Shown here in pieces: positions 5,384 through 28,026 of a DNA stretch of 34,022 bases. Made by a program: the position numbers and the translations under genes. The DNA comes from a virus: positions 1 to 34,022 of IMG/VR virus record IMGVR_UViG_3300044858_003347; one strand, written 5' to 3'. The notes below the pieces were generated by a model that saw only the letters and a list, made by a program, of their open reading frames with translations, searched no databases and was not told the origin of the DNA. Within the stretch, counting starts at the first letter, position 1; each line of letters starts with the position of its first letter.

Positions 5384-5427
5384 GCGACCCCTCTCCGAAA
5401 CCCGCAACCACCAACCAACTCACCACC

Positions 5428-5796: not shown

Positions 5797-5816
5797 GCCC
5801 ACGCCCGCACCCAGCG

Positions 5817-5844: not shown

Positions 5845-5860
5845 TTCCCTACGAAAAATT

Positions 5861-14139: not shown

Positions 14140-15192
14140 ATGGCAAATCCAATTATTAAAATTTTACGCGGTGCAACACCGCCTGCGGCTCTCCAAGCGG
14201 GTCAACTCGCAATCGATCAAGTCGCTAAGAATCTCTATCTCGGCGTAGAAGTCGGTGGAATCACAACCAACGAAATCGTTGGTGGTTCTGGCACATTCGC
14301 AACCAAAACCTATGTCGATACCGCAGTTTCTACGGGAACTGGCTCGCTCGGAACGATGTCCACGCAGGATGCTGATTCGGTGGCGATCACTGGCGGCAAC
14401 ATTAACGGAACAACTATCGGCGCAACTACCCCTTCGACGGGTGCTTTCACAACTCTGACCGCTTCTAGTGCGCCAAGTGCCTCGACAGATGTTGTCCGTA
14501 AAACCGACCTCGACACGGCTATTTCCGCTCTCGGATCGGTGTTCCATTTTGTTGGCGATGTTAGCTCTGCCTCTACTCCCCTTGATCTCAGCACCCTGAG
14601 CGATACAACTACTGGTGCTTACTACAAGGTCGATGTCGCTGGAACCTACACGGCAGGAGCATCTAGCTTCGCGGCCAAGGTTGGCGATGCGTTTGTCAAA
14701 ACCAGCACGGGCTGGCAAAAGCTGGACAATGTGGATGTCGAAGTGCTGCCAACCGCAAACGAAATCTCCGTAACTGGCGATGAGAATTCGGGTTACACGG
14801 TTTCCATTGATCCTGTTTTCTCAGGACGGGTTACGACTGCGGAAAGTGACATCGAAGACCTCGAAACCAAGACGCAGAACATTGACCTTGCTCTTACGAC
14901 TGCGGGAACGACCACGATCAATGGCGATTTCACCGTGGATTCTGGCGGCGGAGCATACATGATTAGAGCTACTGGTTCAGTGATCGAACTCAACGAAAGT
15001 GGTAATGCTGTTGGTGTTAGAGTTCACTCCACGCTCGATCTCGTTGATTCTGGTTATGGTCTTGGTGATGACACAGATGGCTTTATCGCCCTCCAAGCAG
15101 CAGGACATTTGGTCGGTGTCAATCACACCTATGGTGGGTCGTCCCAAATGAGCAAAATCGAAAACTTCATCATCGACGGTGGAGTTTACTAA
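14140..15192 (+). CDS. Tail fibre protein
   Basis: A 350-residue Thr/Ser/Gly-rich fibre. Residues 70-115 contain ITGGNINGTTIGATTPSTG, a motif I associate with fibre-like structural proteins of environmental phages. The central part is β-rich and ends in a charged coiled-coil-like stretch (TTAESDIEDLETKTQN) before a C-terminal domain (residues 245-350). The N-terminus MANPIIKILRGATPP suggests attachment to a conserved partner, since the next gene starts in a similar way (MASPIIIPKK). GC content drops from here on, suggesting this part of the fibre cluster was acquired or swapped. Confidence 0.75.
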   Translation: MANPIIKILRGATPPAALQAGQLAIDQVAKNLYLGVEVGGITTNEIVGGSGTFATKTYVDTAVSTGTGSLGTMSTQDADSVAITGGNINGTTIGATTPSTGAFTTLTASSAPSASTDVVRKTDLDTAISALGSVFHFVGDVSSASTPLDLSTLSDTTTGAYYKVDVAGTYTAGASSFAAKVGDAFVKTSTGWQKLDNVDVEVLPTANEISVTGDENSGYTVSIDPVFSGRVTTAESDIEDLETKTQNIDLALTTAGTTTINGDFTVDSGGGAYMIRATGSVIELNESGNAVGVRVHSTLDLVDSGYGLGDDTDGFIALQAAGHLVGVNHTYGGSSQMSKIENFIIDGGVY

Positions 15193-15252: not shown

Positions 15253-16203
15253 ATGGCAAGTCCAATCATAATTCCCAAGAAAAGCACTATTGCTGATAAG
15301 GTCCCCCACCCAGAGCAACTTGAGGGGGGAGAGGTATCCGTAAACTGGGCCGATCAGGTCTGGCACGGCAAACATCCTAGCACGAATGCCGTAGTCCCCA
15401 TTGGCGCACCCGCCATTCACAGTCACGACGAATTGTATTCGCTCGATCAGACGAAGCACCTTGAGTTGCAAAACAATGGCGACTTAACGCTTCCCAACGG
15501 CGGCACGATTTCGGATTCTGCCGTAGCCGAGGGATCACTCACTTTCACGCCGCCAGGCGCAACTAACCAATGGACGCTCGGTATAGATGGTAGCACAATT
15601 TTACCTAATAACGCTTTAAAAGGTTATTCTTTCACCGCCACTAACACTGTTACTAATTATATTCCGCAAGCAGGGTCTTTTTTATACTCTGACAATGCAA
15701 TACTAGGTTTAATTACCTCAATAGGCGGAGCGTGGTATATTAAAGGGCCGGGTTTAGTAGGCTGGAAACAGATAACTCAAGCGCAGGACAATAGCGGAGT
15801 TGCTTTAATTTTAAGAATTGGCAGTGGGAACACTCCATTGCCAGACGGATCAGAATTTCCTTCGGGCGGCGGTAATGTTTACACAATCAGTCAATATATT
15901 GAATTTGACCTCAAGGTTGCTGACAAGACTTGGGTATTTAACAAAGACGGCGATTTAACACTGCCCGCTAGTGGGGATATTTTAGACAGTAACGGAACTT
16001 CGGTTTTAGGTGGCGGCCAACCCACCTCACACAAATCCTCCCATGCCACAGGCGGCTCGGATGCGCTCACTCCTGCCGATATTGGGGCTATCGCTAAAAA
16101 CATTTCGGACTCTAAGCCCGTCAATGCCATTCGTGCAATAAGCGCAACAGATTACGATGCCCTTGGATCACCTGATTCAAATACCATTTATTTTATACTT
16201 TAA
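15253..16203 (+). CDS. Tail fibre protein
   Basis: A 316-residue fibre with an N-terminus similar to the previous one (MASPIIIPKKSTIADKVPHP). Repeated NGDLTLPNGGTISDS and DGDLTLPASGDILDS strand units flank a β-rich domain (residues 95-215). The C-terminus has SHKSSHATGGSDALTPADIGA, a fibre motif in which the His and Asp/Ala-Ile-Gly turns lead to trimerisation or the next fibre. The stop is followed at once by the next ATG. Together with its neighbours this forms a multi-subunit or stepwise fibre. Confidence 0.72.
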   Translation: MASPIIIPKKSTIADKVPHPEQLEGGEVSVNWADQVWHGKHPSTNAVVPIGAPAIHSHDELYSLDQTKHLELQNNGDLTLPNGGTISDSAVAEGSLTFTPPGATNQWTLGIDGSTILPNNALKGYSFTATNTVTNYIPQAGSFLYSDNAILGLITSIGGAWYIKGPGLVGWKQITQAQDNSGVALILRIGSGNTPLPDGSEFPSGGGNVYTISQYIEFDLKVADKTWVFNKDGDLTLPASGDILDSNGTSVLGGGQPTSHKSSHATGGSDALTPADIGAIAKNISDSKPVNAIRAISATDYDALGSPDSNTIYFIL

Positions 16204-16204
16204 T

Positions 16205-17563
16205 ATGCCATCAACAGCCGGACAAGTTTATTTAGGTGACTCATTGATTAACAATTTGAGATTTGATAACACCCCCGTTTGGACGCGACCGACTGCGTGG
16301 ATTGCTATGCCGACAATTACATCTACCGAACAAAAAGTAGCTGCACTTTTTCTTGTAGGGGATAATGATAGTAATTTTGTTGCTTTTCGTTGCGCTGGAA
16401 ACTACACAGTTGATTGGGGCGATGGTTTTATTGAAAATGTTGCAAGTAATGTCACAGCGCAACATAACTATGTGTTTAGTAATCTCTCGGCATCAACAGA
16501 AATTGGGCCTGTTGATTCTAAAATGCGGCAGGCAATGATTGTCATAACTCCGCAAGCGGGACAAAATCTTACGTCTATTCAGTTCAATTTCAAGCACACA
16601 TCAGTTAATGCAACACAATATACAACACCAATTCTTGAAATTACTCTATCGGCTCCAAATTGCACAACATTGCTTATTGGAGGAACAACAGGGAATTTAA
16701 GGCTTCTTGAGCGGTGCGCTATCCTGTCACATAAGGCGACAGGTTTAGCCAATCTATTTCAAAATTGTTCATCGCTCCAAAGTGTTCCTTTATTTGATAT
16801 TTCGCCTGCGGCAAGCCTTGGCAGTATGTTTTTAGGTTGTGTCTCGCTTCGCAGCGTTCCTCTATTTAATCTTTCTAATGTGTCAAACATAAATGGTATG
16901 TTTAGCGGCTGCTCATCGCTCCAAAGTGTTCCTCTGTTTAATACTGCCGCTGCAACAAACATGAGTAATATGTTTCAAAATTGCACATCGCTCCAAAGTG
17001 TTCCTCTATTTAATACTGCGGCTGCTACAAACATGAGTGGTATGTTTCAAGCTTGCTCGGCACTTCGGAGTGTTCCTTTGTTTAATACTTTGAATGTATT
17101 AACTATGAGCGGTATGTTTCAGACATGCGCCTCACTCAATAGAATCCCTTTATTCAATACTCCGAACCTAACAAATACGAGTATCATGTTTCAAAACTGC
17201 ACATCGCTTCAAAGTGTTCCGTTGTTTAACACTGCGCTCGTGACAAATATGAGCAGCATGTTTCAAAATTGCGTTTCACTTCAAAGCATTCCAGCCTTTA
17301 ATTGCTCCAGCGCAACAAACATGGCTTCTTTTGCTTCAACTTGTCAGGCACTCAAGCGTTGCCAAGCAACAGGAATAAAAGCTTCTGTATCATTTGCATC
17401 CTGCACTCTTAGCGCAAGTGCGCTAAATGAAATCTACACCAATTTAGCAAATTTAAATTCTTCGCCACAGCAAACTATAACTGTCACAGGAAATTATGGT
17501 GTAGCCACAGACAACCCCGCAATCGCAGCACCCCCGGAAAAAAATTGGAATGTTGTTGGATAA
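16205..17563 (+). CDS. Leucine-rich-repeat (BspA/DUF285-like) fibre or adhesin
   Basis: A 452-residue protein, clearly AT-rich compared with the head and replication genes. Residues 1-185 form a β-rich N-terminal domain with a WGDG motif (TVDWGDGFIE), typical of PKD/BspA-associated folds. Residues 189-380 are eight 24-residue repeats with consensus SLQSVPLFNTxxxTNMSxMF and a closing Cys, matching the bacterial surface-protein LRR type called BspA or DUF285. The C-terminus is Thr/Asn-rich. BspA-like proteins bind host or matrix molecules; here it probably tips the fibre. The AT bias and bacterial-surface-protein design point to horizontal acquisition. The start is ATG 16205. Confidence 0.8.
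   Translation: MPSTAGQVYLGDSLINNLRFDNTPVWTRPTAWIAMPTITSTEQKVAALFLVGDNDSNFVAFRCAGNYTVDWGDGFIENVASNVTAQHNYVFSNLSASTEIGPVDSKMRQAMIVITPQAGQNLTSIQFNFKHTSVNATQYTTPILEITLSAPNCTTLLIGGTTGNLRLLERCAILSHKATGLANLFQNCSSLQSVPLFDISPAASLGSMFLGCVSLRSVPLFNLSNVSNINGMFSGCSSLQSVPLFNTAAATNMSNMFQNCTSLQSVPLFNTAAATNMSGMFQACSALRSVPLFNTLNVLTMSGMFQTCASLNRIPLFNTPNLTNTSIMFQNCTSLQSVPLFNTALVTNMSSMFQNCVSLQSIPAFNCSSATNMASFASTCQALKRCQATGIKASVSFASCTLSASALNEIYTNLANLNSSPQQTITVTGNYGVATDNPAIAAPPEKNWNVVG
16769..17344 (+). repeat. Eight 72-bp tandem repeats (24-residue LRR)
   Basis: Each unit begins near TCGCTCCAAAGTGTTCC and ends on a Cys codon. Units 3, 4 and 7 are the most alike, with units 3 and 4 nearly identical at the protein level (differing at N/G and N/A positions). 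Such arrays readily expand or contract by recombination in multiples of 72 bp, keeping frame. Confidence 0.85.
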
Positions 17564-17567
17564 TTTT

Positions 17568-17750
17568 ATGGAAAACACATCTGGATTTTACAAGGAAGAA
17601 AAAGGCGAACTGATTTATGGCCCAAATTTTGTTTTGAGCAAAAATTTTGAACTCCGCAAAGAAACGCATGATCAATATACATACCCGGTAGGCGGGTTCT
17701 ATTGGTTTGATTCCGAAACTGAAGCAAGGGCTTTTTTAAATATCTTCTGA
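17568..17750 (+). CDS. Small protein after LRR fibre
   Basis: A 60-residue protein starting at ATG 17568. It contains GELIYGPNFVLSKNFELRKETH and a C-terminal YWFDSETEARAFLNIF, a strand-turn-helix pattern. It may be a fibre chaperone or a cap. Base composition is AT-rich like the LRR gene, so both were probably acquired together. Confidence 0.6.
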   Translation: MENTSGFYKEEKGELIYGPNFVLSKNFELRKETHDQYTYPVGGFYWFDSETEARAFLNIF

Positions 17751-17753
17751 GCA

Positions 17754-17996
17754 ATGAACGAACTCGCTAAATACTTTGACATCGGGCTTAAAATCGCCAG
17801 CACCGTAGCGCTCCTCGCCGTTGCTCTGCTTGGAACAAAATTTGTTACTAAGGAGGAGTTTACGGCGGCAAACACTCGCATCGAGAAGATTGAGGCTGTT
17901 TTAATCAGGATGGAGCAGAACGCAGTCACCGATGCTCGCCACGACAACATTTTGAACGATCACGAAACCCGCATCCGTGGCCTCGAGCGCCGTTGA
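17754..17996 (+). CDS. Membrane protein with coiled coil (holin- or spanin-like)
   Basis: An 80-residue protein with one transmembrane helix (residues 12-31, IASTVALLAVALLGTKFV) and a charged coiled coil after it (TKEEFTAANTRIEKIEAVLI…). The layout suits an inner-membrane spanin-type or holin-accessory protein, or the DUF2730-like family found in phage lysis regions. It is the first gene of the lysis cassette. It starts 3 nt after the previous gene. Confidence 0.6.
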   Translation: MNELAKYFDIGLKIASTVALLAVALLGTKFVTKEEFTAANTRIEKIEAVLIRMEQNAVTDARHDNILNDHETRIRGLERR

Positions 17997-17999
17997 ACC

Positions 18000-18007
18000 T
18001 TTGACAC
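18000..18007 (+). promoter_or_regulatory. TTTGACAC element (copy 7)
   Basis: The octamer lies 22 nt upstream of the holin ATG and shares TTTGACAC and a CCCTC with copies 1 and 2 but lacks the hairpin. It marks the start of the lysis genes, far from the other copies. Confidence 0.45.
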
Positions 18008-18021
18008 TTGCCCTCTAATCG

Positions 18022-18195
18022 ATGAACGCAATCTACTTTGTCCTCGATCGTCTTTCGGAAAACAGCACTTGGCGCGGCCTCATCCTCGTCGCAGTCGCTC
18101 TCGGCGTGAAGCTCGAGCCAGAGATGCAAAACCAGATCATCGCCGCCGGGCTCGGCCTCGTCGGCACGATCAACATTTTCCGAAAAGGAAAATGA
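18022..18195 (+). CDS. Probable holin (57 residues)
   Basis: A short protein in the lysis cassette. Residues 17-26 (WRGLILVAVALGV) and 36-50 (IIAAGLGLVGTINIF) are hydrophobic helices joined by a short polar loop (KLEPEMQNQ), and the C-terminus is basic (RKGK). A two-helix membrane protein of this size next to an endolysin is the standard holin design, forming the hole that releases the amidase. ATG 18022 follows a TTTGACAC element. Its stop overlaps the next start. Confidence 0.75.
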   Translation: MNAIYFVLDRLSENSTWRGLILVAVALGVKLEPEMQNQIIAAGLGLVGTINIFRKGK

Positions 18196-18443
18196 ACCCA
18201 AAACAAGTCGCCGCGACCGCAGTCATGCTCGCGTGGGTTTTTCTGGCGATTAGTTTTCTGAGCGGATGCGTGGCCGTCCCCATGCCTCCCTTCGGTGAAA
18301 GAGTGGGCGAAGCCGGAACGCTCCACATCCGCGCCACGGTCCGCTTCGAGCCACGCCTGAGCAACAGCGAAGCCGCCAACCGCGACCTCTGGAACGCTCT
18401 TGGTGAGTTCCAAAAAACCCTGCCCGCGCTCAAGGACAAATGA
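18192..18443 (+). CDS. Small lipoprotein, probable outer-membrane spanin
   Basis: An 83-residue protein starting at ATG 18192, overlapping the holin stop (ATGA). The N-terminus is a lipoprotein signal: basic start, hydrophobic VMLAWVFLAISF, then lipobox LSGC with Cys about residue 26. The mature part is Pro/Arg/Glu-rich. A small lipoprotein between holin and endolysin is a common o-spanin arrangement in Gram-negative phages and implies a Gram-negative-type envelope. The final KD K and the next ATG overlap by ATGA. Confidence 0.7.
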   Translation: MNPKQVAATAVMLAWVFLAISFLSGCVAVPMPPFGERVGEAGTLHIRATVRFEPRLSNSEAANRDLWNALGEFQKTLPALKDK

Positions 18444-19033
18444 TTTCGCTCCTCGCCCGCTTCTTCATGTTGCCACGCCCGGCGCAATCCCCCGCGCCCG
18501 CGCCTGAGTCGAAGCCCGAGAAGCCACCCAAAACCTCCGGCCTCCTCAAGCCCGAGCCAAAGTTTTACCAACAGACAAACAAGAAGACGCCCAACATCTC
18601 AGCGGGCCGCGTCATCAAACCGACGCACATCGTCCTGCACCACACCTCCGGCGCTTACGCCGGATCCGTCTCGTGGTGCTGTGATCCGGCCAGCAAAGTC
18701 AGCTACCACTGCATAATCGCCCGCAACGGCAAACGCACGACTCTCGCCCTCCCCACCCAGCGAACCTGGCACGCCGGGGTCAGCTCGTGGCAAGGCCGCA
18801 AAGATGTCAACTCATTCAGCGTCGGCATGGCATGGGAAGGGGACACCTTCTCGACCCCATTGAGCGAAGACGCACTCCTCTCCGCCGTCGAATATCTCCT
18901 CCCCATCCTCCGCGAAAACAACATCCCCCTCGCAAACATCCTGCGCCACGCCGACATCGCCCCCGGCCGCAAAGACGACTGCTCCCCAACCGCCCACGCC
19001 GCGCTCCTAGCGGCCCTCAACCGCGTCCTGTAA
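18440..19033 (+). CDS. Endolysin: N-acetylmuramoyl-L-alanine amidase (Amidase_2)
   Basis: A 197-residue peptidoglycan amidase that cuts the bond between MurNAc and L-Ala. Residues 1-50 are a hydrophobic start (MISLLARFFM) followed by a Pro/Lys linker, which could be a signal-anchor-release or N-terminal membrane segment. Residues 60-197 are an Amidase_2 domain with IVLHHTSG (Zn ligand His), SYHCIIARNGK, TWHAG and HADIAPGRKDDCSP (Zn ligands His and Cys, with catalytic Lys/Asp context). A TAATG overlap couples it to the next gene. Confidence 0.87.
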   Translation: MISLLARFFMLPRPAQSPAPAPESKPEKPPKTSGLLKPEPKFYQQTNKKTPNISAGRVIKPTHIVLHHTSGAYAGSVSWCCDPASKVSYHCIIARNGKRTTLALPTQRTWHAGVSSWQGRKDVNSFSVGMAWEGDTFSTPLSEDALLSAVEYLLPILRENNIPLANILRHADIAPGRKDDCSPTAHAALLAALNRVL

Positions 19034-19272
19034 TGGCAAAAAAACCAGCCCCGCCCAAAGACCGCGAGGCCGTCATGCTCCAAGCCCGCGCCCTCCTCGC
19101 CGAGCATTTCGCGCATGGCATCTGCGTGGTGTCTTGGGAGGACGAAGGCACCACCTACAACATGGATTTCAAATTTGGCAATGACTACGCCGCCAAAGCC
19201 CTCGCCCGCGAAGCCGAAGAACTTCTCTGGCCCCTCGAGGAAGAAGAAGAGGAAGACGAAGAAGAAGTATGA
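19033..19272 (+). CDS. Small acidic protein
   Basis: A 79-residue protein overlapping the endolysin stop (TAATG). Basic N-terminus (AKKPAPPKDREAV), a helical/β central part (ICVVSWEDEGTTYNMDFKF), and a very acidic C-terminus (LEEEEEEDEEEV). It may be a DNA mimic or a protein partner, but no function is recognised. It overlaps the next gene by ATGA. Confidence 0.6.
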   Translation: MAKKPAPPKDREAVMLQARALLAEHFAHGICVVSWEDEGTTYNMDFKFGNDYAAKALAREAEELLWPLEEEEEEDEEEV

Positions 19273-19526
19273 AGGCCACGCTTGAGTTCACCCTACCCGA
19301 AGAACGCACCGAGCACATCTGCGCGGTCAAGGGAATGGACACGATTTTAATACTGGATGACCTTCTTAACGAAATCCGCGCCTTCCTTAAACATGGCAGC
19401 GGAGAATTTCGGCAATGGCGAGACGACGAAGGCGAGACCCGCACAGGGTGCGACGCCACGCTCGAAAAAATCCGCTCCTACATCTGGGAGTTAAGAAAAG
19501 ACAACGAGATTCCCGACATCCCATGA
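19269..19526 (+). CDS. Hypothetical protein
   Basis: An 85-residue charged, helical protein (EIRAFLKHGSGEFRQWRDDEGETR, LEKIRSYIWELRKDNEI) that links by ATGA to the acidic protein before it and to the phosphoesterase after it. Its transcription together with those genes suggests a shared process. Function unknown. Confidence 0.6.
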   Translation: MKATLEFTLPEERTEHICAVKGMDTILILDDLLNEIRAFLKHGSGEFRQWRDDEGETRTGCDATLEKIRSYIWELRKDNEIPDIP

Positions 19527-20254
19527 CACCGATCCGAAAATGGAAAAAGTGGATGGCTGTCGGATGCTCACACGGCGAACTCATCTGCCCCGAAAGCCGC
19601 CGCGCTGTGCTGGATTTTTCCAAGAAATTTCGCCCAGACTTCCGTGCGCATCTAGGCGATTTTATCGACCTCGCCGCCATGCGCGGTGGCGTCGCCTCCG
19701 ATGTGGACAGCAAAGACCGCGCTCGCAACATCGCCCAAGATGTCAGCGAGGGGATTTCATTCCTCTACGAATTTGCTCCGAATGTGATCATGCTCGGCAA
19801 CCACGAAGCCAGACTGAGCCGCATGGCAGAATCCCCCAACGCCGTCCACGCCCACGCCGCGCAGACCGTCCTCAACGAACTCGGAGACTGCGCCAAAAAG
19901 CTCAAGGCGCGCATCTACCCCTACCACAATTCAAAAGGCGTCCACCGCCTCGGAGACCTCGCCATGGTCCACGGCTATTCCTGCAATGTGTCTGCCATCC
20001 GCGACCACGCCGAGACCTACGGCAAAGTCATCATGGCCCACCTCCACCGAGTAGGCATCGAGCGCGGCCGCCGCATCGATTCTCCCACCGGCTACTGCCT
20101 CGGAGCGATCTGCAATCTCGACATGGACTACAGCTCCACCCGCCGAGCGTCATTGGCCCACTCGTCTGGCTTCGCGTGGGGCTACTTCACCGACAACTCA
20201 ACAACCGTCAACCTGTGCGAAAGACAAAAAAACCAACCGTGGCTTCTGCCGTAG
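19523..20254 (+). CDS. Calcineurin-like metallophosphoesterase
   Basis: A 243-residue enzyme with the metallophosphoesterase motif set in order: GCSHG (14-18, replacing the usual DxH), GDFID (45-49), GNHEA (92-96), a MVHGYS segment and AHLHRVG near residue 175. These bind two divalent metals and cleave phosphoesters. The substrate is not predictable, with nucleotide, nucleic-acid end or small-molecule phosphates all possible. The protein is complete. ATG 19523 overlaps the preceding stop by ATGA. It lies between lysis and integration genes in the late-transcribed direction. Confidence 0.8.
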   Translation: MTPIRKWKKWMAVGCSHGELICPESRRAVLDFSKKFRPDFRAHLGDFIDLAAMRGGVASDVDSKDRARNIAQDVSEGISFLYEFAPNVIMLGNHEARLSRMAESPNAVHAHAAQTVLNELGDCAKKLKARIYPYHNSKGVHRLGDLAMVHGYSCNVSAIRDHAETYGKVIMAHLHRVGIERGRRIDSPTGYCLGAICNLDMDYSSTRRASLAHSSGFAWGYFTDNSTTVNLCERQKNQPWLLP

Positions 20255-20514
20255 AAAAAGCCTGGGGCGCCTTCTTTCAGTCGACGGCCGCATGCGACCC
20301 CTCTGAACTGAAAAAGGAAGGCTGGATGACCAACATGGAAATTTCCGAGCTATCAAAGCTCAAAGGCGAAGCCGGTCGACAGCTCGCCGACAAAGGCGTC
20401 CGCTCTGGCGTCCTTGAAAAAAAAGTAGCCAAAATTTTGATCAATGGCCGTCGAGCCAATGTCAATTTCTACAGGCCTCGGGCAACACCGGGCAACACTC
20501 CCGCAAGTCATTGA
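20215..20514 (+). CDS. Small putative DNA-binding protein
   Basis: A 99-residue protein from GTG 20215, overlapping the phosphoesterase by 40 nt; GTG 20239 is an alternative. It is Lys/Arg-rich with a possible helix-turn-helix: WMTNMEISELSKLKGEAGRQ, then DKGVRSGVLEKKVAKILING. The C-terminus contains NVNFYRPRATPGN. The 3' end of the gene carries the left pair of GGGCAACA repeats, so it overlaps the recombination region. It may be an accessory DNA-binding protein for integration, but this is only from location. Confidence 0.5.
   Translation: MRKTKKPTVASAVEKAWGAFFQSTAACDPSELKKEGWMTNMEISELSKLKGEAGRQLADKGVRSGVLEKKVAKILINGRRANVNFYRPRATPGNTPASH
20480..20498 (+). repeat. Left GGGCAACAC pair (candidate arm-type sites)
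   Basis: GGGCAACAC occurs at 20480-20488 and 20490-20498, 10 bp apart and therefore on one DNA face. Matching copies lie on the other side of the tRNA-derived core, as expected for arm-type integrase-binding sites. Confidence 0.5.
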
Positions 20515-20534
20515 AAAACAAAGCCAAGAAAGCG

Positions 20535-20589
20535 ACTTAAAATCCGTTTTCGCGAAAGCGGAGTGCGGGTTCAAGTCCCGCCGCCGGCA
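20535..20589 (+). other. attP core: 3' half of tRNA-Leu(UAA)
   Basis: The 55-bp stretch reads as the 3' part of a leucine tRNA. It has an anticodon loop with TAA (20536-20542), the 3' anticodon stem, a long type II variable arm (TTCGC-GAAA-GCGGA), a perfect T-arm (GCGGG 20565-20569, TTCAAGT, CCCGC 20577-20581), the acceptor 3' strand CGCCGGC and discriminator A (20589). Upstream of about 20534 the match fails: the 5' anticodon stem cannot form. So this is not a gene but a phage attachment site copying the host tRNA, placed about 140 bp before integrase. Recombination would rebuild a whole tRNA at one junction. Confidence 0.85.
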
Positions 20590-20699
20590 GAGCGAGTTGT
20601 GACGATTTGGGCTAGGTTTTATGCGGGTTGGCGGGCGGTTGGCTTCTTGAAACTACAGGCGGGAAGTGGTGGCTACTGGAAGAAAATAGTTGCGATTTC

Positions 20700-20728
20700 G
20701 GGCAACACGGGCAACAAGTGGGCAACAG
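20700..20728 (+). repeat. Right GGGCAACA triplet (candidate arm-type sites)
   Basis: GGGCAACA starts at 20700, 20709 and 20720, ending 3 bp before the integrase ATG. With the left pair they bracket the tRNA core. Integrase bound here could also repress its own translation or transcription start. Confidence 0.5.
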
Positions 20729-20731
20729 ACC

Positions 20732-21751
20732 ATGAGTGCCTTTCTTGTCAGTCCATACCCGCAGCGGCCTTCGACGCCTTGGAAGCTGACGATCCCGCAG
20801 AAAATTTTTGGGAAAAGGATTCGCCGGTTTTATCGCACCGAGGCGGAGGCTTGGGCGGCGGGGCCGGGGCTGGTGGAGAAACTTCAGAAGGGTGGGACGG
20901 ATTCGCTCTCGGAGGAGCAGGCGAGGGGTATGTCGATGAAGTCGGCGGTGCGGGATTATCTGGCTTCCAAAACGGGGTCTTCGGAACGGCATCGTGAGAA
21001 ACTTGAAAAAATATGTGGGGAGCTTTTGGATGCTTTCCCTGGCGCGGTGGCGGCGGTCACTCCGATGCAGGCGGCGAGGGTCTTTGCCAAGGTTCAAGGC
21101 GCGCCGACGACGCGGGCGGGGTGGCATCGTTACGCCTCCGGGTTCTTTCGGTGGTGCGTTGATATGGAACTTCTGGACCGAAATCCATTTCGCCGCGTCG
21201 TGGCGCCGGAGGCTGAGAGTAAAAGGTCACTGATCTCGGCGAAGGAACTGCGGGCGATCTTAGATGCGGAGATGTCGGATGCGCTGCGCGCTTGGTTTCT
21301 TCTCGGTGCCTTTGCTGGGTTGCGGTCCATCGAGGTCCATCGAATGCGGTGGGAGGATGTGGACCCGAAGACAGGACAGATCGAGGTTCGGAGGGAGGTT
21401 TCGAAACAATCCTCGGGCCTGCCGGAGCGGATCGTGGATTTCACGGAGCCGCTGGCGAGGCGGAAGGAATTTTTCAAAGGAAAATCGGGGCTGATTGTGC
21501 CTCCGAAATCTCTCCGGCTTTATCGGGAGCGGGAGGCGCTGATCGAGCGGCTGAACAATGAGGGCGTGGTGCCGTGGGCTATGCTGCCAGAGAACGCACT
21601 CCGCCATTCTTTCGCTACCTACCACCTCGGCCGATGCCAAGATGCGGGCAAGACCGCGCATCAGATGGGGCATTCGTCAACGGCTCTGGTTCTCAAGACC
21701 TACGCGGTGCCGTCTCGCAAGGCGGACTGGCGGGCTTGGTGGAGGGTTTAG
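20732..21751 (+). CDS. Tyrosine site-specific recombinase (integrase)
   Basis: A 339-residue tyrosine recombinase. Residues 1-70 are a basic, probably arm-binding N-terminal part (KLTIPQKIFGKRIRRFYRTEAEA). Residues 75-165 form a core-binding SAM-like domain with helices (YLASKTGSSERHREKLEKI…). Residues 170-339 are the catalytic domain: GLRSIEVHRMRW with the first Arg, RHSFATYHL as the HxxR-type box, GHSSTALVLKTY with the nucleophile Tyr near residue 326. ATG 20732 is chosen because the open frame before it reads the GGGCAACA repeats. With attP next to it, it should integrate the phage into a host tRNA-Leu(UAA) gene. Confidence 0.9.
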   Translation: MSAFLVSPYPQRPSTPWKLTIPQKIFGKRIRRFYRTEAEAWAAGPGLVEKLQKGGTDSLSEEQARGMSMKSAVRDYLASKTGSSERHREKLEKICGELLDAFPGAVAAVTPMQAARVFAKVQGAPTTRAGWHRYASGFFRWCVDMELLDRNPFRRVVAPEAESKRSLISAKELRAILDAEMSDALRAWFLLGAFAGLRSIEVHRMRWEDVDPKTGQIEVRREVSKQSSGLPERIVDFTEPLARRKEFFKGKSGLIVPPKSLRLYREREALIERLNNEGVVPWAMLPENALRHSFATYHLGRCQDAGKTAHQMGHSSTALVLKTYAVPSRKADWRAWWRV

Positions 21752-21764
21752 GCGGACAGGTCGA

Positions 21765-22094
21765 TTATTTCGCCTTGCCACCCTGGAGGGAGATCGCAGT
21801 TTGGTGAGTTGACAATCCACCATCGGAGGTCACGGATTGTGGGCGCACAATATTCGCAGACGCGCCCTGGGGGAGGGGCTGTTCCTTCGATTGGTGCCTC
21901 TCATAAGCTGCCCGGTAGTGGTAGTCCCACGCGAGCCTCATGCACTTACGGATGGCTTGAGATGGAACCATGTCGGTATGGTTCACTTCAAACTCGTAAC
22001 GGATAATTTTGGACAAAATATCTTGGCACTCCGGGGTCAAGCTGACGCCCGGTTTTTTCACTTTTTCGCTGTCTGTTTTTTTGTGCCGACCCAC
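21765..22094 (-). CDS. Divergent regulator, candidate lysogeny repressor
   Basis: The only credible minus-strand gene (109 residues). It starts at a GTG (22094) giving MGRHKKTDSEKVKK; an alternative GTG at 22124 lies in an operator half-site. The core VSLTPECQDILSKIIRYEFEVNHTDMVPSQAIRKCMRLAWDYHYRA resembles a ribbon-helix-helix or small DNA-binding domain (strand, then two helices), followed by a Gln/Ser-rich tail. Convergent with integrase by 13 bp and divergent from an RHH gene, with GTGCAC palindromes between. This is the layout of a lysis-lysogeny switch; no established repressor family is recognised. Confidence 0.6.
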   Translation of the reverse strand: MGRHKKTDSEKVKKPGVSLTPECQDILSKIIRYEFEVNHTDMVPSQAIRKCMRLAWDYHYRAAYERHQSKEQPLPQGASANIVRPQSVTSDGGLSTHQTAISLQGGKAK

Positions 22095-22117
22095 AACGAA
22101 AACAATGTCAGCGAATA

Positions 22118-22156
22118 GGTGCACCCTTGCAACCTATATTTTTTATTCGGTGCACC
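22118..22156. promoter_or_regulatory. GTGCAC operator pair near repressor
   Basis: GGTGCACC occurs at 22118-22125 and 22149-22156, 31 bp apart (about three helical turns), inside an AT-rich stretch between the divergent regulators. GTGCAC is a perfect palindrome and is likely the binding site for one of the two regulators. Confidence 0.6.
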
Positions 22157-22215
22157 AAAAAAATATTTTCGCCCGCAAACCTTGTCCCCATGCGGATGTC
22201 AATAGAAATCTTCGT

Positions 22216-22244
22216 ATGGGGAGAACACCCCATTGACTTTTTTT
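22216..22244 (+). other. Palindrome plus T-run upstream of RHH gene
   Basis: ATGGGG (22216-22221) and CCCCAT (22228-22233) form a perfect 6-bp stem, loop AGAACA; a run of seven T follows at 22238-22244. It may be an operator, or an intrinsic terminator that stops upstream transcription before the early genes. TTGACT (22233-22238) could be a -35 box, but no good -10 follows. Confidence 0.45.
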
Positions 22245-22253
22245 ATTGATAAA

Positions 22254-22279
22254 AGTGCACCGAAATAAAAAAGTGCACC
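22254..22279. promoter_or_regulatory. GTGCAC operator pair at early gene start
   Basis: AGTGCACC occurs at 22254-22261 and 22272-22279, 18 bp apart, just ahead of the RHH ATG (22282). With the left pair this makes four sites flanking the two divergent regulators. Confidence 0.6.
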
Positions 22280-22281
22280 GC

Positions 22282-22443
22282 ATGACAGCGAGCAACAAAA
22301 AACAGGGAGCGTGTTTCCCGATTGACCTCTGGCAGGAGATCAAGCGGGAAGCTGAAACAAACGACACGACACTGAGCAAAGTGATCGTTCAAGCGGTCCG
22401 CGAAATGGTGGATCGGAAAAACAAACGGAGGGCGAAGAAATGA
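22282..22443 (+). CDS. Ribbon-helix-helix (CopG/Arc-like) regulator
   Basis: A 53-residue protein from ATG 22282; the open frame extends upstream only through the operator repeats. FPIDLWQEIKREAETNDTTLSKVIVQAVREMVDRK has the strand then two-helix RHH pattern. It is likely a dimeric DNA-binding repressor of early transcription, with GTGCAC as candidate operator. The 3' end holds an AACGGAGGGC ribosome-binding site for the next gene, which overlaps by ATGA. Confidence 0.7.
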   Translation: MTASNKKQGACFPIDLWQEIKREAETNDTTLSKVIVQAVREMVDRKNKRRAKK

Positions 22444-22673
22444 ACCTCTCCGAGACTTTCATCGATATGGACGAGGCAAAGCGCCTCTCGGGTTTTTCCA
22501 GCCGATCGATCCGCGACTACATTAAACGAGGTGAGTTCGCCGCCACGATGCCACGGGGCCGGTGCGGAGGGTGGCACATCGTCCGCCAATCATTTCTTGA
22601 TTGGTGGGGCTACCGCAACGCATCGACGGCAAACCGCACGACGGTCCCAACACGGAAACGGAGGGCCGCGTAA
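22440..22673 (+). CDS. Helix-turn-helix DNA-binding protein (excisionase/MerR-like)
   Basis: A 77-residue protein with a winged-helix-type HTH: MDEAKRLSGFSSRSIRDYIKRGEF, then a wing-like MPRGRCGGWHIVRQSFLDWW. This is the pattern of phage excisionases and MerR-like DNA-binding proteins. Because it sits close to integrase, an excisionase role is plausible, but control of early genes is equally possible. A strong AACGGAGGGC Shine-Dalgarno precedes it, and it ends with the same motif before the next gene. Confidence 0.7.
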   Translation: MNLSETFIDMDEAKRLSGFSSRSIRDYIKRGEFAATMPRGRCGGWHIVRQSFLDWWGYRNASTANRTTVPTRKRRAA

Positions 22674-22822
22674 TGAACCTCTATTACTGCCAAGCAAACG
22701 GGGTCTTTGGCCGGTTCGGCGATTATGTTTGGGCGAAGTCCCGCGTGGATGCCGAGCTGGATTTTCAGCTCAAGCATCACGCATGGCCGACATCGACTCG
22801 GCTCGAACGGAGGGCGGCGTAA
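22673..22822 (+). CDS. Small hypothetical protein
   Basis: A 49-residue protein starting at a TAATG overlap (ATG 22673). An AACGGAGGGC Shine-Dalgarno lies at 22657-22666 in the preceding gene. Contains GVFGRFGDYVWAKSRVDAELDFQLKHHAW, a helix-strand pattern with no recognised function. It ends in another AACGGAGGGC copy before the next start. Confidence 0.6.
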   Translation: MNLYYCQANGVFGRFGDYVWAKSRVDAELDFQLKHHAWPTSTRLERRAA

Positions 22823-22929
22823 TGGACTACGAGACCACGCTTCGCTGTATCGGTTACGGCCTCGACTTTATCCAAATCCTCGCCCTGCCGGTCTTGTTGC
22901 TGGCGATCACTTGGAGGCTGGCACGATGA
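22822..22929 (+). CDS. Small membrane protein
   Basis: A 35-residue protein with one hydrophobic helix (IQILALPVLLLAITW). It starts at ATG 22822 by TAATG overlap and has a strong Shine-Dalgarno. Early location suggests a host-directed membrane function, such as superinfection exclusion, but nothing specific is visible. Confidence 0.5.
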   Translation: MDYETTLRCIGYGLDFIQILALPVLLLAITWRLAR

Positions 22930-23120
22930 GCCGCTGGACCCCCGCAACGGTGGAGCTGCCGGATGAAGACATCGAGGTCGTCATCCACACGGCAGACGAC
23001 GATGTGGCAACTGGCTTTTTGGATGCCGGCGTGTGGAGGTTCACGAATGCGGCCCGCGTTCTGGTGCCGGTCCTTCACTGGCAACACCTCCCCGAGCCTC
23101 CCGAGGAGGGCGCGAAATGA
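22926..23120 (+). CDS. DUF551-like protein
   Basis: A 64-residue protein starting with MSRWTPATVELPDEDIEVVIHTADDD and ending in VPVLHWQHLPEPPEE. The W-x-P-…-LP opening and HW-x-x-LPEPP close match the DUF551 family of small phage proteins of unknown function. ATGA overlaps the gene before it and the one after. Confidence 0.7.
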   Translation: MSRWTPATVELPDEDIEVVIHTADDDVATGFLDAGVWRFTNAARVLVPVLHWQHLPEPPEEGAK

Positions 23121-23287
23121 GCGCGTGGGAGGCCGTCCTTCTCTCCTCCATCGCCTTTGGGTCCATGTGGGCTTGCTACTGCATCGGCTGGCGTGACGGG
23201 CGCATGACAGAGCGCCGTCGCCAGGAGCGCTACTACCGGCGCGAGGAGTTCAACCGCGATTGGGACAACCACGACGACTTCGACTGA
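23117..23287 (+). CDS. Small membrane protein
   Basis: A 56-residue protein with a single transmembrane helix (LSSIAFGSMWACYCIGW) and a charged Arg/Glu/Asp-rich tail (GRMTERRRQERYYRREEF). It overlaps DUF551 by ATGA. It ends an early operon before the recombination genes. Function unknown. Confidence 0.55.
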   Translation: MSAWEAVLLSSIAFGSMWACYCIGWRDGRMTERRRQERYYRREEFNRDWDNHDDFD

Positions 23288-23300
23288 TTTTGCCTCGCTA

Positions 23301-23380
23301 GTCCCCAAGGGGGACGCAGGGGACAAGGGGGGCAGCGCATCCCAAAAAACGCTGACCAACAACAAACAAACAAAAGAGTG
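23301..23380 (+). promoter_or_regulatory. Leader with hairpin and CAA-rich tract
   Basis: GTCCCC (23301-23306) and GGGGAC (23310-23315) form a 6-bp hairpin; GGGGAC repeats at 23319-23324, so an alternative fold is possible. An AACAACAAACAAACAAAAG tract then precedes the ATG (23381), without a strong Shine-Dalgarno. It may control expression of the recombination genes. Confidence 0.45.
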
Positions 23381-24307
23381 ATGAAAATTGTAAAAGGAAA
23401 ACAACAGCGGCCACAGCGGGTGGTCATTTACGGGGTCGAAAGCGTCGGTAAGACGACTTTTGCCAGCAAGTTCCCTTCTCCCTTGTTCCTCGACATCGAG
23501 GGCGGCAGCAACCACCTCGCCGTGGACCGGGTCGCAGTCTCGAGTTGGAAGGAACTCGGCGAGTGCATCACCGAAGCCAGCCGGACGGATTACGAGACGG
23601 TGGTCATCGACTCGGCAGACTGGGCCGAGCGCCTAGCGGTTGAAGACCTCCTCGCCACGAGCAAGAAGCAGAGCGTCGAGGATTTCGGATTCGGCAAGGG
23701 GTGGGTGATGGCGGCGGAAAAGGTCAGCCGGTTTTTGACCGCTCTCGATATGCTCATCGATGCCGGCAAACATGTGGTTGTCCTGGCGCACTCCAAAGTC
23801 CAGCGCACGGAGCCGCCGGACATCTTGGCCGCTTACGACCGCTACGAGTTGAAGCTCTCCAAGCAGTCCTCGCCGCTGGTGAAGGAATGGGCTGACGAGC
23901 TTTGGTTTTTCCGGTTCAAGACCAAGGCCGTTTCGCAGGAGAACGGCAAGGCCAAGGGCATCGGGGGCAAGGAGCGCATCATCTTGACTACCCACTCGGC
24001 GGCTTACGACGCGAAGACCCGCTCGGGCCTCGCCGAAGAACTCCCGATGGAATGGGAATCCGTGGCGCATGTTTTTGGGAAACCTGCACCCAAAACCTCG
24101 GCGCCTGCCGTGGAGATCATTGGCCGGGAGTCGGTGGCCGTCCTCGAGGACAACGAGGAAGTCGTCAACCTCTTCCTCGTTAGCAACGGATCCATCGCCG
24201 AGGGCCAGACATGGCGAGACGCCAGCGAGAAACTGCGCCAGCAGATCGTGGCGCGGCCTGCCGCCCTAGTGGCTAAAGCCAAAGCTCAAATGGAGGTGGC
24301 GGCATGA
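23381..24307 (+). CDS. Sak4-like recombinase (RecA-core, AAA_24)
   Basis: A 308-residue P-loop ATPase. Walker A is GVESVGKTT (18-26), Walker B is VVIDSAD (74-80), and a RecA-like core continues through VVVLAHSKVQRTEPP. The C-terminus has a charged, helical tail. This family includes Sak4-type single-strand annealing proteins, which work with their own SSB. The following nuclease and DUF669-like gene support a phage recombination module. The start is ATG 23381, one codon after a GTG. It is coupled to the nuclease by ATGA. Confidence 0.8.
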   Translation: MKIVKGKQQRPQRVVIYGVESVGKTTFASKFPSPLFLDIEGGSNHLAVDRVAVSSWKELGECITEASRTDYETVVIDSADWAERLAVEDLLATSKKQSVEDFGFGKGWVMAAEKVSRFLTALDMLIDAGKHVVVLAHSKVQRTEPPDILAAYDRYELKLSKQSSPLVKEWADELWFFRFKTKAVSQENGKAKGIGGKERIILTTHSAAYDAKTRSGLAEELPMEWESVAHVFGKPAPKTSAPAVEIIGRESVAVLEDNEEVVNLFLVSNGSIAEGQTWRDASEKLRQQIVARPAALVAKAKAQMEVAA

Positions 24308-25311
24308 TCAAGGAAATCTCCCCTTCCTCCCTGCCGAAGCTCGCCGAGTGCGCCCTGTTTACGAGCGCACCCGGCACCAGCGCGGCGGCGGAGCGTGGGA
24401 CTCTATTAGACAAAGCCATCAGGGAGCTTTTGGTTGATGATCCCACGACCTACGACGGCCTCGCTGCCGAGGATCAGGCGGTGGCTCGGTGGGGCGTGGA
24501 TGAACTTCGGACGCTCTCCGGTGGCTACCATGTCGAGACCCGCGAAGAATATCTCGGCATGGAGGTTCCGGGCCTTTCCAAACCCGGAACAGCCGACGCG
24601 GTATGCGTTCGTGCTCAGTGGGTGGCAGACATAAAAACGGGAGCCGTCAGGAATTATAGGGAACAATTAAGTGCCTATTGTTTAGCCTGCATGCACGAGC
24701 ATTTTGCGGACTCGTGGACGGCTCATGTCGTTTATGTCGATCAGAGAGTTAGGCGCACCTACACATTCACGAGGGAGCAAGCCGAGGCGACCGTTTCGGC
24801 GGTGATCGCTAATGCCAGCAGCCGGTTAGCGGAGCCGACGCCTAATGAATTTTGCGGCTGGTGTGCTCATGCCAACTCGTGCCGAGCCTTGGTGCGTCAA
24901 TCGACCGAGGCGCTGGCATTAGTCAAGTCCGACCGTTGTCTTACCGATATCCGCGACCAAATCCTCGCCAATCCGGTCGAGCTATCCGCTTTCGCCGCGA
25001 ACTGGAAACTCGCCGAAAAGCAGATCGCCGAGCCGGTCATCGATGCTCTGAAGGAACGCCTCGCCGCTGGTGAGGAAATCCCCGGCTGGAAGGTCACGAC
25101 CGGCGCAGGGCGTCAGTTCGTGGAGGCCGATGCCATCGCTCGGGCCTCCGCCAATGTTTCAAAAGAAACGCTTATCCTCGCCCTCGGCGGGAAGATGAGC
25201 GCCGACAAATTTCGCCAGTTCTGCGCCGATGCCGGTGTCGAAGTGGATGAATCCGCGGTGAAAGCAGGGTCACCGATAAACACCCTGCGCCAAATCAAAT
25301 CCAAAAAATAA
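24304..25311 (+). CDS. Fe-S-type PD-(D/E)XK nuclease
   Basis: A 335-residue nuclease with PD-(D/E)XK core features: GTADAV (Asp98), VADIKTG (Asp109-x-Lys111) and QLSAYCLA (QxxxY). Cys16 near the N-terminus plus CGWCAHANSC (Cys184, Cys187, Cys193) give C-Xn-C-X2-C-X5-C, the pattern of AddB- and Cas4-like Fe-S nucleases. It probably resects DNA ends for the annealase encoded just upstream. The C-terminal 130 residues are helical (WKLAEKQIAEPVIDALKERL…). It starts by ATGA overlap with Sak4. Confidence 0.83.
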   Translation: MIKEISPSSLPKLAECALFTSAPGTSAAAERGTLLDKAIRELLVDDPTTYDGLAAEDQAVARWGVDELRTLSGGYHVETREEYLGMEVPGLSKPGTADAVCVRAQWVADIKTGAVRNYREQLSAYCLACMHEHFADSWTAHVVYVDQRVRRTYTFTREQAEATVSAVIANASSRLAEPTPNEFCGWCAHANSCRALVRQSTEALALVKSDRCLTDIRDQILANPVELSAFAANWKLAEKQIAEPVIDALKERLAAGEEIPGWKVTTGAGRQFVEADAIARASANVSKETLILALGGKMSADKFRQFCADAGVEVDESAVKAGSPINTLRQIKSKK

Positions 25312-25312
25312 T

Positions 25313-25747
25313 ATGCCTACCTACAAACAATCCGAACCGAAACCCGTCTATTTCGTCGAGCCGGGAACCTACAAAGTCGAAATCGTCAACGCCATGGAGA
25401 AGCTCTCCAAGGCCGGAAACCCGATGATCAAACTCATCTGCCGAGTCGAGATCGGCGAGGGTGCCAAGGGGCCGGAAGTGCATGAGCACCTGACCTTCAC
25501 CGAAAAAGCGGGGTGGAAGATTGACCAAGTGCGCGAAGCCTGCGGGTTCGCCGTTATCCCAGGCGAGGACATCGATGTGCAGCCCGAGGATTTCATCGGC
25601 AAGACCGCCACGGTCGTTCTTGGCGAGGAAGAGGGGGCCGACTCCGGCCATCGATTCAACACCCTCGAGCGCTGGATGTCACCCAAATCCTCGGCCCCCG
25701 CGCCGAAAGCCAAGCCCGCCAAAGAGACGGACGATATCCCGTTCTGA
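25313..25747 (+). CDS. DUF669/SSB-like protein
   Basis: A 144-residue protein with an all-β body similar to DUF669 or OB-type phage proteins: VEPGTYKVEIVNAMEKLSKAG, MIKLICRVEIGEGA, then KTATVVLGEEEG. A disordered Pro/Ala/Lys linker precedes a C-terminal DDIPF, nearly identical to the acidic tail of bacterial SSB that recruits partner proteins. It likely coats single-stranded DNA and helps the Sak4-like ATPase. The gene follows the nuclease by one base. Confidence 0.75.
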   Translation: MPTYKQSEPKPVYFVEPGTYKVEIVNAMEKLSKAGNPMIKLICRVEIGEGAKGPEVHEHLTFTEKAGWKIDQVREACGFAVIPGEDIDVQPEDFIGKTATVVLGEEEGADSGHRFNTLERWMSPKSSAPAPKAKPAKETDDIPF

Positions 25748-25759
25748 GGATTTGATCTT

Positions 25760-27262
25760 ATGATTACGCTGATCCCAACAAACAAACTTAAACCGCATCC
25801 CAAAAACCCGCGTCTTGTCATGCGGGAGGATGTCATTGAGTCAATCAAAGCAGGGCTGGCGGATGGGTTTCACCCGTCTTATGCCCTGCAAGTCTGGCCA
25901 CAGGGAGATGATTACTTCATTCTCTCCGGTCACCACCGAACCGAGTCAGCCCGCCGCCATGGCATTCAAGAAGTGCCTTGCTTCGTGCGGGAGGACTTGG
26001 ACGAGGACGAGGCTTACATGGTCCTTGCTACGGCCAACGCGCAAGGCGAACTCTCGCCGCTCGAGATCGGGATGCACGCTCTGCATTATGTGGAGAAGGC
26101 CACGGGTGGGCGAGGGCAGAAAGGCGGGCTGTCTGCTTATGCGGAGGCTGTTGGAAAAGATGTGAGGACTCTTCGAGCAAATCGAGATGCTGCAGAGGTA
26201 GCCGTAAAGATAGGGGATAACCCCCACCTTTTGAAAAAGTCAGATCACCTTGCTGCGATTCACAAACTCCCGGAGGATGCTTGGGGTGTGGCGGTCGATG
26301 CGATGCTCAAGCAGGAGCTTTCGGCCAAGGACACACAGAAGACCGTGGAGGATGCCTTGGAGGCCGCGAGCGAAATCCCAAAAGCCCAAGCCGAGCGGCT
26401 CCACGGCGTAGAGGCCCGCGTGATGGCTGGCAAAGTCCGCCGCAAAGGAGTGCGCGACCTTGTGGCAATCCTTTCCGAAATTGATGCCCTCGAGGAGCAG
26501 GTTACTGAGGGGGAGCTAACGAACGAACTGAATCCGCCGGCAGACTGGTGGGATATTCGGGAGGTTAGCGCATACAGGGACGAGATCGCTGCGGTCGTCG
26601 CAGAGGCTATGGCACTCAGGCCGACCGTCTACCGCACAGATGCCCTCTCATTACTTGGCACGATTGAGGACGGGAGCGTGGATTTAATCATCACCGACCC
26701 ACCTTATGCGACCGACATCGAGGACATCGCCGCATTTGCCAAGTCATGGGTGCCGGTTGCCATGCGCAAGCTCTCAAAGACGGGCCGCGCTTACATTTGC
26801 ACGGGAGCCTACCCAGCGGAGTTGGCAGCCTATGCCACGGAGTTGCTTGCCATCGAGGGGCTCAATGTTGGGGTGCCGTTGGTTTGGACCTACAACAACA
26901 CGATCGGGCCAGCGCCAACACATGACTATAAGACAAACTGGCAATCCATCTGGCATGTCTACCGTGAGGACGCACCGCCGATCAATTCGCCGATCCTGAC
27001 AGAGAAAAACACCGTTCACACGATCAGCGCGCCGGACGGCCGGCATGACGGGCGACTTCATGCCTGGCAGAAGCCGGACGAGTTGGCGCAGATGCTCATC
27101 CGCCATGCTTTGGCAAAGCCGGGGGCCACGGTGGTGGATCCGTTTTCTGGCACAGGCACATTCTTGGTGGCTGCATCAAAGGCCGGCCACAAGGCAATCG
27201 GCTCAGAAGTCTCCGAGGACATGATCAAAATCCAAGCCGGAAGGGGGATCCGTCATGAGTGA
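25760..27262 (+). CDS. ParB-like/DNA methyltransferase fusion
   Basis: A 500-residue fusion. Residues 1-100 are a ParB/sulfiredoxin-like N-terminal domain with IPTNKLKPHPKNPR and ILSGHHRTESARRHGIQEVP. Residues 100-265 are helical linker sequence. Residues 280-500 are an amino-methyltransferase: DPPY-type motif LIITDPPYA near residue 310 and later the SAM motif VVDPFSGTGTF, with motif order that suits the beta class. It transfers methyl to adenine N6 or cytosine N4; specificity is unknown. The gene overlaps the next by 8 bp. It could protect phage DNA or control DNA replication and packaging. Confidence 0.85.
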   Translation: MITLIPTNKLKPHPKNPRLVMREDVIESIKAGLADGFHPSYALQVWPQGDDYFILSGHHRTESARRHGIQEVPCFVREDLDEDEAYMVLATANAQGELSPLEIGMHALHYVEKATGGRGQKGGLSAYAEAVGKDVRTLRANRDAAEVAVKIGDNPHLLKKSDHLAAIHKLPEDAWGVAVDAMLKQELSAKDTQKTVEDALEAASEIPKAQAERLHGVEARVMAGKVRRKGVRDLVAILSEIDALEEQVTEGELTNELNPPADWWDIREVSAYRDEIAAVVAEAMALRPTVYRTDALSLLGTIEDGSVDLIITDPPYATDIEDIAAFAKSWVPVAMRKLSKTGRAYICTGAYPAELAAYATELLAIEGLNVGVPLVWTYNNTIGPAPTHDYKTNWQSIWHVYREDAPPINSPILTEKNTVHTISAPDGRHDGRLHAWQKPDELAQMLIRHALAKPGATVVDPFSGTGTFLVAASKAGHKAIGSEVSEDMIKIQAGRGIRHE

Positions 27263-27827: not shown

Positions 27828-27828
27828 C

Positions 27829-28026
27829 ATGACCCAAGACCTCACCCTCCGCCTCTCTATCTGTCTGAACGACTGCCCTATCGGGCCGCGCATTCAACGG
27901 GCGGAGCCTCTGCCGACTTATCGGCACACCTACGCGCTGGCAGAACAGGCGGTGGCGGAGGCCGACATGGAGCGGGTGCGGGAATACATCGAACGGAACC
28001 AGAACACTATGAAGGGGAAGAAATAA
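27829..28026 (+). CDS. Small hypothetical protein
   Basis: A 65-residue protein, Pro/Arg-rich first, then helical (ALAEQAVAEADMERVREYIERNQN). It starts 1 nt after the previous gene. Its TAA overlaps the ATG at 28026 (TAATG), a coupling style used elsewhere in this genome, which matters for the overlapping frame described below. Function unknown. Confidence 0.55.
   Translation: MTQDLTLRLSICLNDCPIGPRIQRAEPLPTYRHTYALAEQAVAEADMERVREYIERNQNTMKGKK

Follow-up and report, generated by a model that had tools for sequence, protein, structure and literature searches.

A putative swappable tail-fibre tip cassette, comprising an LRR protein gene and a small partner gene, in a 34-kb viral record

The window, meaning the whole 34,022-bp stretch that was analysed and that makes up one IMG/VR record, contains two adjacent genes that we consider rather likely to form a swappable tail-fibre tip cassette, in which an LRR adhesin is combined with a small cap or chaperone, in a phage that is probably temperate and siphovirus-like. 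An earlier note on this DNA had treated positions 16205–17750 as one fibre of BspA/DUF285 type; positions 16205–17563 (plus strand) are indeed the gene of a 452-residue LRR protein, whereas the end of that interval is a separate gene encoding a 60-residue partner (17568–17750, plus strand). The observation of the LRR protein was confirmed and its interpretation as a fibre was partly supported.

The LRR protein was matched by the DUF285 model of Pfam (PF03382, E 3e-33, 114.5 bits against a cut-off of 25) and by the TIGR02167 repeat of NCBIfam (E 9e-24, 82.8 bits against a cut-off of 30). Eight DUF285-like repeats, as the note had proposed, were found as a tandem array of consecutive 24-residue units with conserved hydrophobic positions at residues 184–375 (16754–17329, plus strand), having a bridge residue once every 24 residues in the structural model, and TRF reported the array with a period of 72 nt, 5.4 copies and 68% matches. 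Units 3 and 4, described as nearly identical, are the most alike pair among the eight, but at 83% DNA identity that wording was somewhat strong. The BspA part of the description fared less well, because the BspA-type Pfam model LRR_5 (PF13306) gave no match at E ≤ 0.1 on the 452-residue protein; it does match the relative L050. Palindrome scores for DNA dyad symmetry in the repeats were no higher than those of 300 synonymous shuffles (p 0.49, 0.53 and 0.12), using a scoring of our own where the PARCEL paper used MEME, and we therefore file them as DUF285 repeats and not as PARCEL in the strict sense. Compared with the DUF285/PARCEL proteins as presented in the available parts of one paper (PF03382, TIGR02167; Roske et al. 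2010, PMC2996958), the window protein belongs to the same repeat family by the curated models and shares a conserved hydrophobic frame, variable polar positions and horizontal spread. It differs in having units of 24 residues instead of 25, in the lack of excess dyad symmetry, in being modelled as an LRR solenoid where those parts of PMC2996958 predict amphipathic helices, and in sitting in a phage tail context together with a small partner.

The layout common to a 29-row alignment of relatives was a variable N-terminus, a beta domain with W-x-R-P-x-x-W and WGDG motifs, then the LRR array, and finally a cap that ends with ...IATAKGWTV. On the plus strand of the window these parts correspond to the N-terminal 30 residues (16205–16294), which are variable in relatives, have low model confidence and are likely to be a docking segment, to the beta domain at residues 31–165 (16295–16699), and to the C-terminal cap domain at residues 386–452 (17360–17560). 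A scan of viral contigs in IMG/VR found 161 relatives of the LRR protein, so that the gene is by no means confined to a single contig, and in the best 80 of these 161 tblastn detected the beta domain in 79 and the N-terminal 30 residues in seven. The cap profile matched in 71 of the same 80 loci.

An AlphaFold2 model from the 29-row alignment was an LRR solenoid with mean pLDDT of 92.3 and pTM of 0.88, having pLDDT below 50 only at residues 1–9 and 16–19, and the protein is thus predicted to be a curved LRR solenoid, as opposed to a non-LRR fold. The top-ranked structure in VIA-align was 4fs7, an LRR protein of Bacteroides (Z 21.2, rmsd 3.5, 322 aligned), which also gave a sequence match (E 1.2e-13), and the Foldseek matches to PDB were LRR proteins at E down to 5.5e-6, with low TM-scores of 0.17–0.31, query-normalised, among the matches listed. 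The structures 4fs7 (Bacteroides ovatus), 4gt6 and 4h09 (Eubacterium ventriosum) share the LRR fold, with sequence matches at E 1e-13 to 4e-5, but were deposited as cellular proteins, some of them cell-surface, and 4fs7 is about 16% identical to the window protein.

The gene of the 60-residue partner starts 4 nt past the LRR stop codon, and its association with LRR genes was seen in profile scans run both ways, which overlap in contigs. A partner profile matched 61 of the best 80 of the 161 LRR loci, 55 times directly behind a recognised cap and six times (L035, L067, L069, L070, L071 and L073) immediately after an LRR gene with an end that the cap profile did not recognise. Among the 19 loci having no partner match, the LRR gene stops at the contig edge in five, a different small protein occupies the partner slot in eight of the 80 (L021, L022, L040, L057, L058, L061, L064 and L065), a weak look-alike of the partner was seen by eye in four (L024, L026, L056 and L062), and L023 and L033 carry neither partner nor other small protein behind the LRR gene. 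The reverse scan, starting from the partner alone and using a tighter 10-row alignment as a 26-row alignment gave no searchable stretch, found 219 relatives; of the best 80, 74 contain an LRR cap, located directly upstream in 73, with the cap match in L230 being partial and non-adjacent. Six partner loci had no cap match (L191, L197, L207, L248, L256 and L237), and in the first five of these the partner sits within about 100 nt of the contig end, the last 30 residues of a cap being visible in L191, L197 and L248. The sixth is clearly a true exception to the rule of a partner behind an LRR gene: at L237:3977-4192 the partner follows a collagen-repeat fibre and a 99-residue ORF, and no LRR, cap or beta-domain match was found in that locus. 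Together with the eight unrelated small proteins in the slot, it shows that the pairing of LRR protein and partner is not absolute.

Both scans taken together gave 128 loci with adjacent cap and partner, at a median gap of 9 nt, from which 64 unique triples, forming 41 clusters at 70% beta-domain identity, were taken into a distance test. Partner distance correlated with cap distance (r 0.71), also when the beta domain was accounted for (partial 0.65, Mantel p 0.001), while partner and beta domain showed no such relation given the cap (-0.06, p 0.83). As adjacency in the DNA could yield an equal correlation, this co-divergence supports, and does not prove, contact between partner and cap.

The partner itself was modelled with confidence (pLDDT 93.7) and had nothing over cut-off in Pfam, PHROGs or NCBIfam, including the curated chaperone and tail-assembly families. 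The Pfam signals for ydhR (E 0.09) and for Inhibitor_I69 (E 0.0075, in L013) were rejected as sub-threshold noise, and a match of the partner profile to Lmo0181 among PDB sequences (E 0.05) was set aside. No PDB match to its fold was found by Foldseek at E ≤ 0.001, nor any Z ≥ 2 among 79 Foldseek-ranked chains that were aligned, although the fold may be a known one. Four BFVD models did match (E 2.4e-6 to 2.5e-4), all of them uncharacterised proteins of uncultured Caudovirales phages, and tblastn found no match to the partner in 50,697 phage records with two queries (E ≤ 0.01 and E ≤ 0.1). We also noted that the small proteins in the partner slot of the eight loci listed above and of L111:5950-6117 look alike by eye, being about 52–68 residues long with the pattern ..YYIHVTADEGK.LTNG..KEI..PL..D...W.E.., and that the three members tested of this second family had no Pfam or PHROG match. 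On cyanobacterial genome contigs (L113:9374-9817, L112 and L114) the partner domain was instead seen in an ORF directly upstream of the LRR gene.

That repeat copy number may vary, as the note had anticipated, was evident in the close clade, where eight units are found in the window, L004 and L193 (in the latter counted by eye, as the unit finder returned none), six in L005, five in L006, L007, L008, L012, L198 and L200, and four in L010. L005, which according to contig names stems from the same metagenome as L004, has units that are mosaic relative to those of the window, with best matches of 0.79, 0.96, 0.90, 0.72, 0.97 and 1.00. Within proteins of 52 distant loci (duplicates included), unit positions 3, 4, 6, 23 and 24 differ most, and the entropy order over 375 distinct distant units was 6, 3, 9, 23, 4 and 24, in which position 9 comes third, and the five positions are thus not sharply set apart from the rest. 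The bridge residue falls at unit position 21 in the model, and the five positions would so lie near the strand of the predicted solenoid. Pooled dN/dS in the close clade, with the five positions chosen by close-clade entropy and unit pairs at least 75% identical, was 0.92 at these positions against 0.25 elsewhere; since dS approaches saturation in several of the comparisons and the repeat pairs depend on one another, a dN/dS near 1 may mean relaxed constraint and not selection. An origin of the variation in a diversity-generating retroelement (DGR), with the repeats as its target, was considered and set aside, as the 34-kb record had no RVT_1 match where 3 of 14 control genomes were positive, which is weak evidence given that the record is probably incomplete.

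These patterns bear on what the tip might bind. In cellular bacteria, BspA-like LRR proteins attach to matrix proteins, and the tip could bind mucus, exopolysaccharide or biofilm matrix and concentrate phage near hosts without deciding host range. The partner-like ORF at L026:4545-5216, which is lengthened by three repeats, one of them CBM_5_12-like (25.0 bits, cut-off 26.2), would agree with such a role, but it was recognised as a partner by eye and not by profile, and the variable positions and the turnover of units fit a changing target better than a generic matrix. We regard decoration of this kind as unlikely and prefer a receptor-directed tip.

With regards to placement on the virion, the LRR gene follows directly upon a tail-fibre gene (15253–16203, plus strand) that has a Phage_tail_C match at residues 293–315 (PF24243, E 1.2e-8) and stops 1 nt before the LRR start codon, and further upstream, within the exchanged region discussed below, lies a fibre-like gene at 14140–15192 (plus strand) having no Pfam or PHROG match. 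Eight of the longer LRR relatives were scanned against PHROGs. The open frame of the LRR protein in L063 matched phrog_701 (E 2e-25) and the baseplate wedge family phrog_708 (E 4e-20), that in L078 matched virion structural and baseplate families (E 2.4e-14 and 9e-9), and both also matched head-closure PHROGs; those in L026, L050, L056 and L077 matched the tail-fibre family phrog_9370 (E 1e-12 to 3e-6), and those in L015 and L021 matched solely families of unknown function. These matches place the LRR module, in some relatives, on proteins of virion type. With fibre genes as neighbours and relatives joined to tail or virion proteins, the window protein has the features looked for in a tail-fibre tip, and its location on the virion of this phage is inferred from them.

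The same evidence weighs against lysogenic conversion, with the LRR protein being a BspA-like surface or secreted protein of the lysogen and no part of the virion, which we judge to be quite improbable. It would agree with the integrase of this phage, with the frequent links of DUF285/PARCEL proteins to membrane and surface proteins stated in the available parts of PMC2996958, and with the many cellular relatives of the LRR protein, which in the best 79 examined out of 189 are, judging by record titles, largely from Flavobacteriia. However, the N-terminus has no hydrophobic signal sequence visible by eye, the gene has fibre genes on one side and lysis genes on the other, all in one orientation, the frames in L063 and L078 match virion-protein families, and large contigs, L020 (180,758 bp) among them, likewise carry the beta domain, the cap and the partner. 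That the repeats are a mere length spacer of the fibre with neutral variation is least probable of all, as the variation is centred on few positions while others are conserved, in the close clade as well as in distant relatives, even if repeat number varies widely among relatives and dS is high.

As a separate observation, L111:4572-11278 of Flavobacterium supellecticarium holds three LRR genes of the window's family near an amidase-like ORF (by eye), two of them following near-identical short fibre-like ORFs, and resembles a prophage that has a choice of tips.

The case for the tip cassette as a swappable unit starts from its borders. Similarity to other carriers of the cassette begins inside a linker and tip motif, the HKSSHATGGSDALTPADIGA linker with the NTIYFIL tip at 16045–16204 (plus strand), at about 16045 for L012, 16051 for L004 and 16153 for L010. 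Using the tape measure protein to find 26 phage loci, we saw a match to the upstream-fibre-like protein (P0002) in 13, in which the fibre region is hence present, and among those 13 the LRR gene with its partner occurred in one, L096, which is on the same contig as L012. L085 has a portal 99% and a capsid 100% identical to those of the window, yet its fibre genes are different ones. Similarity to the window resumes near 18.0–18.1 kb in L085, L087 and L101, and the amidase (lysis) gene at 18440–19033 (plus strand; Pfam match) belongs, by the similarity map, to the resumed shared backbone. The contig of L004 (G984, IMGVR_UViG_3300042556_001810, also L284 and L285; 39.6 kb) is identical to the window over 1–5918 and 26096–34022 and 99.6% identical over 16008–26095, with three mismatches after 16205, up to 25560. 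It could have been taken as proof of a fibre swap within one phage, which we rejected as the contig may be a chimeric assembly; by eye it has two unlike genes of large-terminase type, and L004 is for this reason not counted as an independent exchange event.

Base composition points the same way, and here the note was right in giving the LRR gene a lower GC than head and replication genes: it has GC 0.41 and GC3 0.33, against 0.565 in its flanks (6 kb on each side) and mostly near 0.6 in the remaining listed ORFs, the two fibre genes directly 5' of it being intermediate at 0.51 and 0.47. An intrinsically AT-rich LRR family was ruled out, since, over 60 relatives, the GC of the gene tracked that of its flanks (slope 0.75, r 0.86; duplicates removed and flanks of more than 4 kb required). 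The window gene lies 0.089, or 2.3 SD, below that regression line, and being an outlier within its own family makes a recent transfer more likely. Sister genes in L006, L008 and L010 lie in flanks of GC 0.43, and the portal of the window phage had no match in those three records, which may be fragments. The simplest reading of these sequences would be a recent transfer of the LRR gene from phages of lower GC, as suggested by composition together with L006, L010 and other, possibly fragmentary, records.

The remainder of the window encodes a lambda-family portal, a head maturation protease, a major head protein, a tape measure protein and an integrase (20690–21751, plus strand; PHROG E 1.7e-30, Pfam 26.9 bits, just under the cut-off of 27.1). 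A ParB-like N-terminal domain fused to a DNA methyltransferase was also noted at 25760–27262. About 5.75 kb of G984, between the regions matching the two ends of the window, is absent from the window and includes a terminase-like gene, and the window record seems to be incomplete. Among cultured phages, the portal matched only records below 60% identity. An 88% match was found on a contig in one of 387 genomes from the phylum of L164 (Verrucomicrobia), where 14 of the 387 had portal matches at E ≤ 1e-20, as compared with no such match in the phyla of L111 (Flavobacterium; 296 genomes) and L142 (Gammaproteobacteria; 299 genomes). The 38,860-bp verrucomicrobial contig was matched by 16 of 22 window proteins and appears to be a phage contig that sits within a genome bin, with no match to any part of the LRR protein or its partner; DUF285 had no match in the whole verrucomicrobial genome holding the contig with the 88% portal. 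From these portal matches, a verrucomicrobial host is probable.

LRR and DUF285 genes in phages are already on record. The LRR protein was matched in 124 of 50,697 cultured-phage records, but in no record did a single place account for 80% of the query; Sphingomonas PAU gp103, Aeromonas LAh10 and Synechococcus S-SKS1 have repeat homology to it at 28–39% identity, and tblastn of the 50,697 records did not find the 60-residue partner in the cultured phages with such proteins. ORF200 and ORF287 of Vibrio phage vB_VhaM_pir03 are DUF285 or LRR proteins according to the available parts of PMC7765460. We found these DUF285/BspA annotations of pir03, and no description of a two-gene cassette of LRR protein and partner, in the open-licence PMC literature.

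In phages, adhesins that have a chaperone or other small partner are known from gp37/gp38 of T4-like phages and from lambda Tfa. For Alteromonas phage V22, a functional gp26 receptor-binding protein depends on coexpression of gp27, as stated in the available parts of PMC7289586. The window pair resembles gp37/gp38, Tfa and, as far as that partial source goes, gp26/gp27 in joining a putative receptor-binding protein with a separate small protein that may be required for its function, but its 60-residue partner differs in having no Pfam, PHROG or NCBIfam family over cut-off. The variable lymphocyte receptors of jawless vertebrates are likewise LRR solenoids that vary in unit number and at certain positions, and 3m18 gave a weak sequence match (E 0.0012); this is an analogy only.

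We propose that the short flexible N-terminus would dock on the upstream fibre and be followed by the beta domain, the eight-turn LRR solenoid and the C-terminal cap, with side chains at positions 3, 4, 6, 23 and 24 presenting a variable surface that might bind a structure of the bacterial host. Specificity could then shift through point changes at the five positions, through the addition, removal and rearrangement of entire 72-bp units, and through exchange of the whole cassette between phages, all three patterns being seen in the data and their functional effects presumed. Because of the tight linkage and co-divergence, the partner may act with the cap, either as a dedicated folding chaperone or as a bound end-cap subunit. 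A wider reading, which we put forward tentatively, is that uncultured phages have a common and mobile adhesin system resembling variable lymphocyte receptors, in which unit shuffling and face variation change host specificity and a new family of partners of about 60 residues, possibly with a new fold, stabilises the cap; LRR gene and partner would then move together because of that stabilisation.

The range of bacteria open to a phage depends on its receptor-binding proteins, many of which evolve so fast that they are missed in uncultured phages. The signature of cap plus partner is short and conserved, and could thereby flag LRR tips in metagenomic phages that match only families of unknown function. 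The partner, with a confident predicted structure for which no good PDB match was found, can be tested directly by biochemical means through its link to the cap. Should the shuffling of units change specificity, the LRR tip would be a natural modular binding scaffold.
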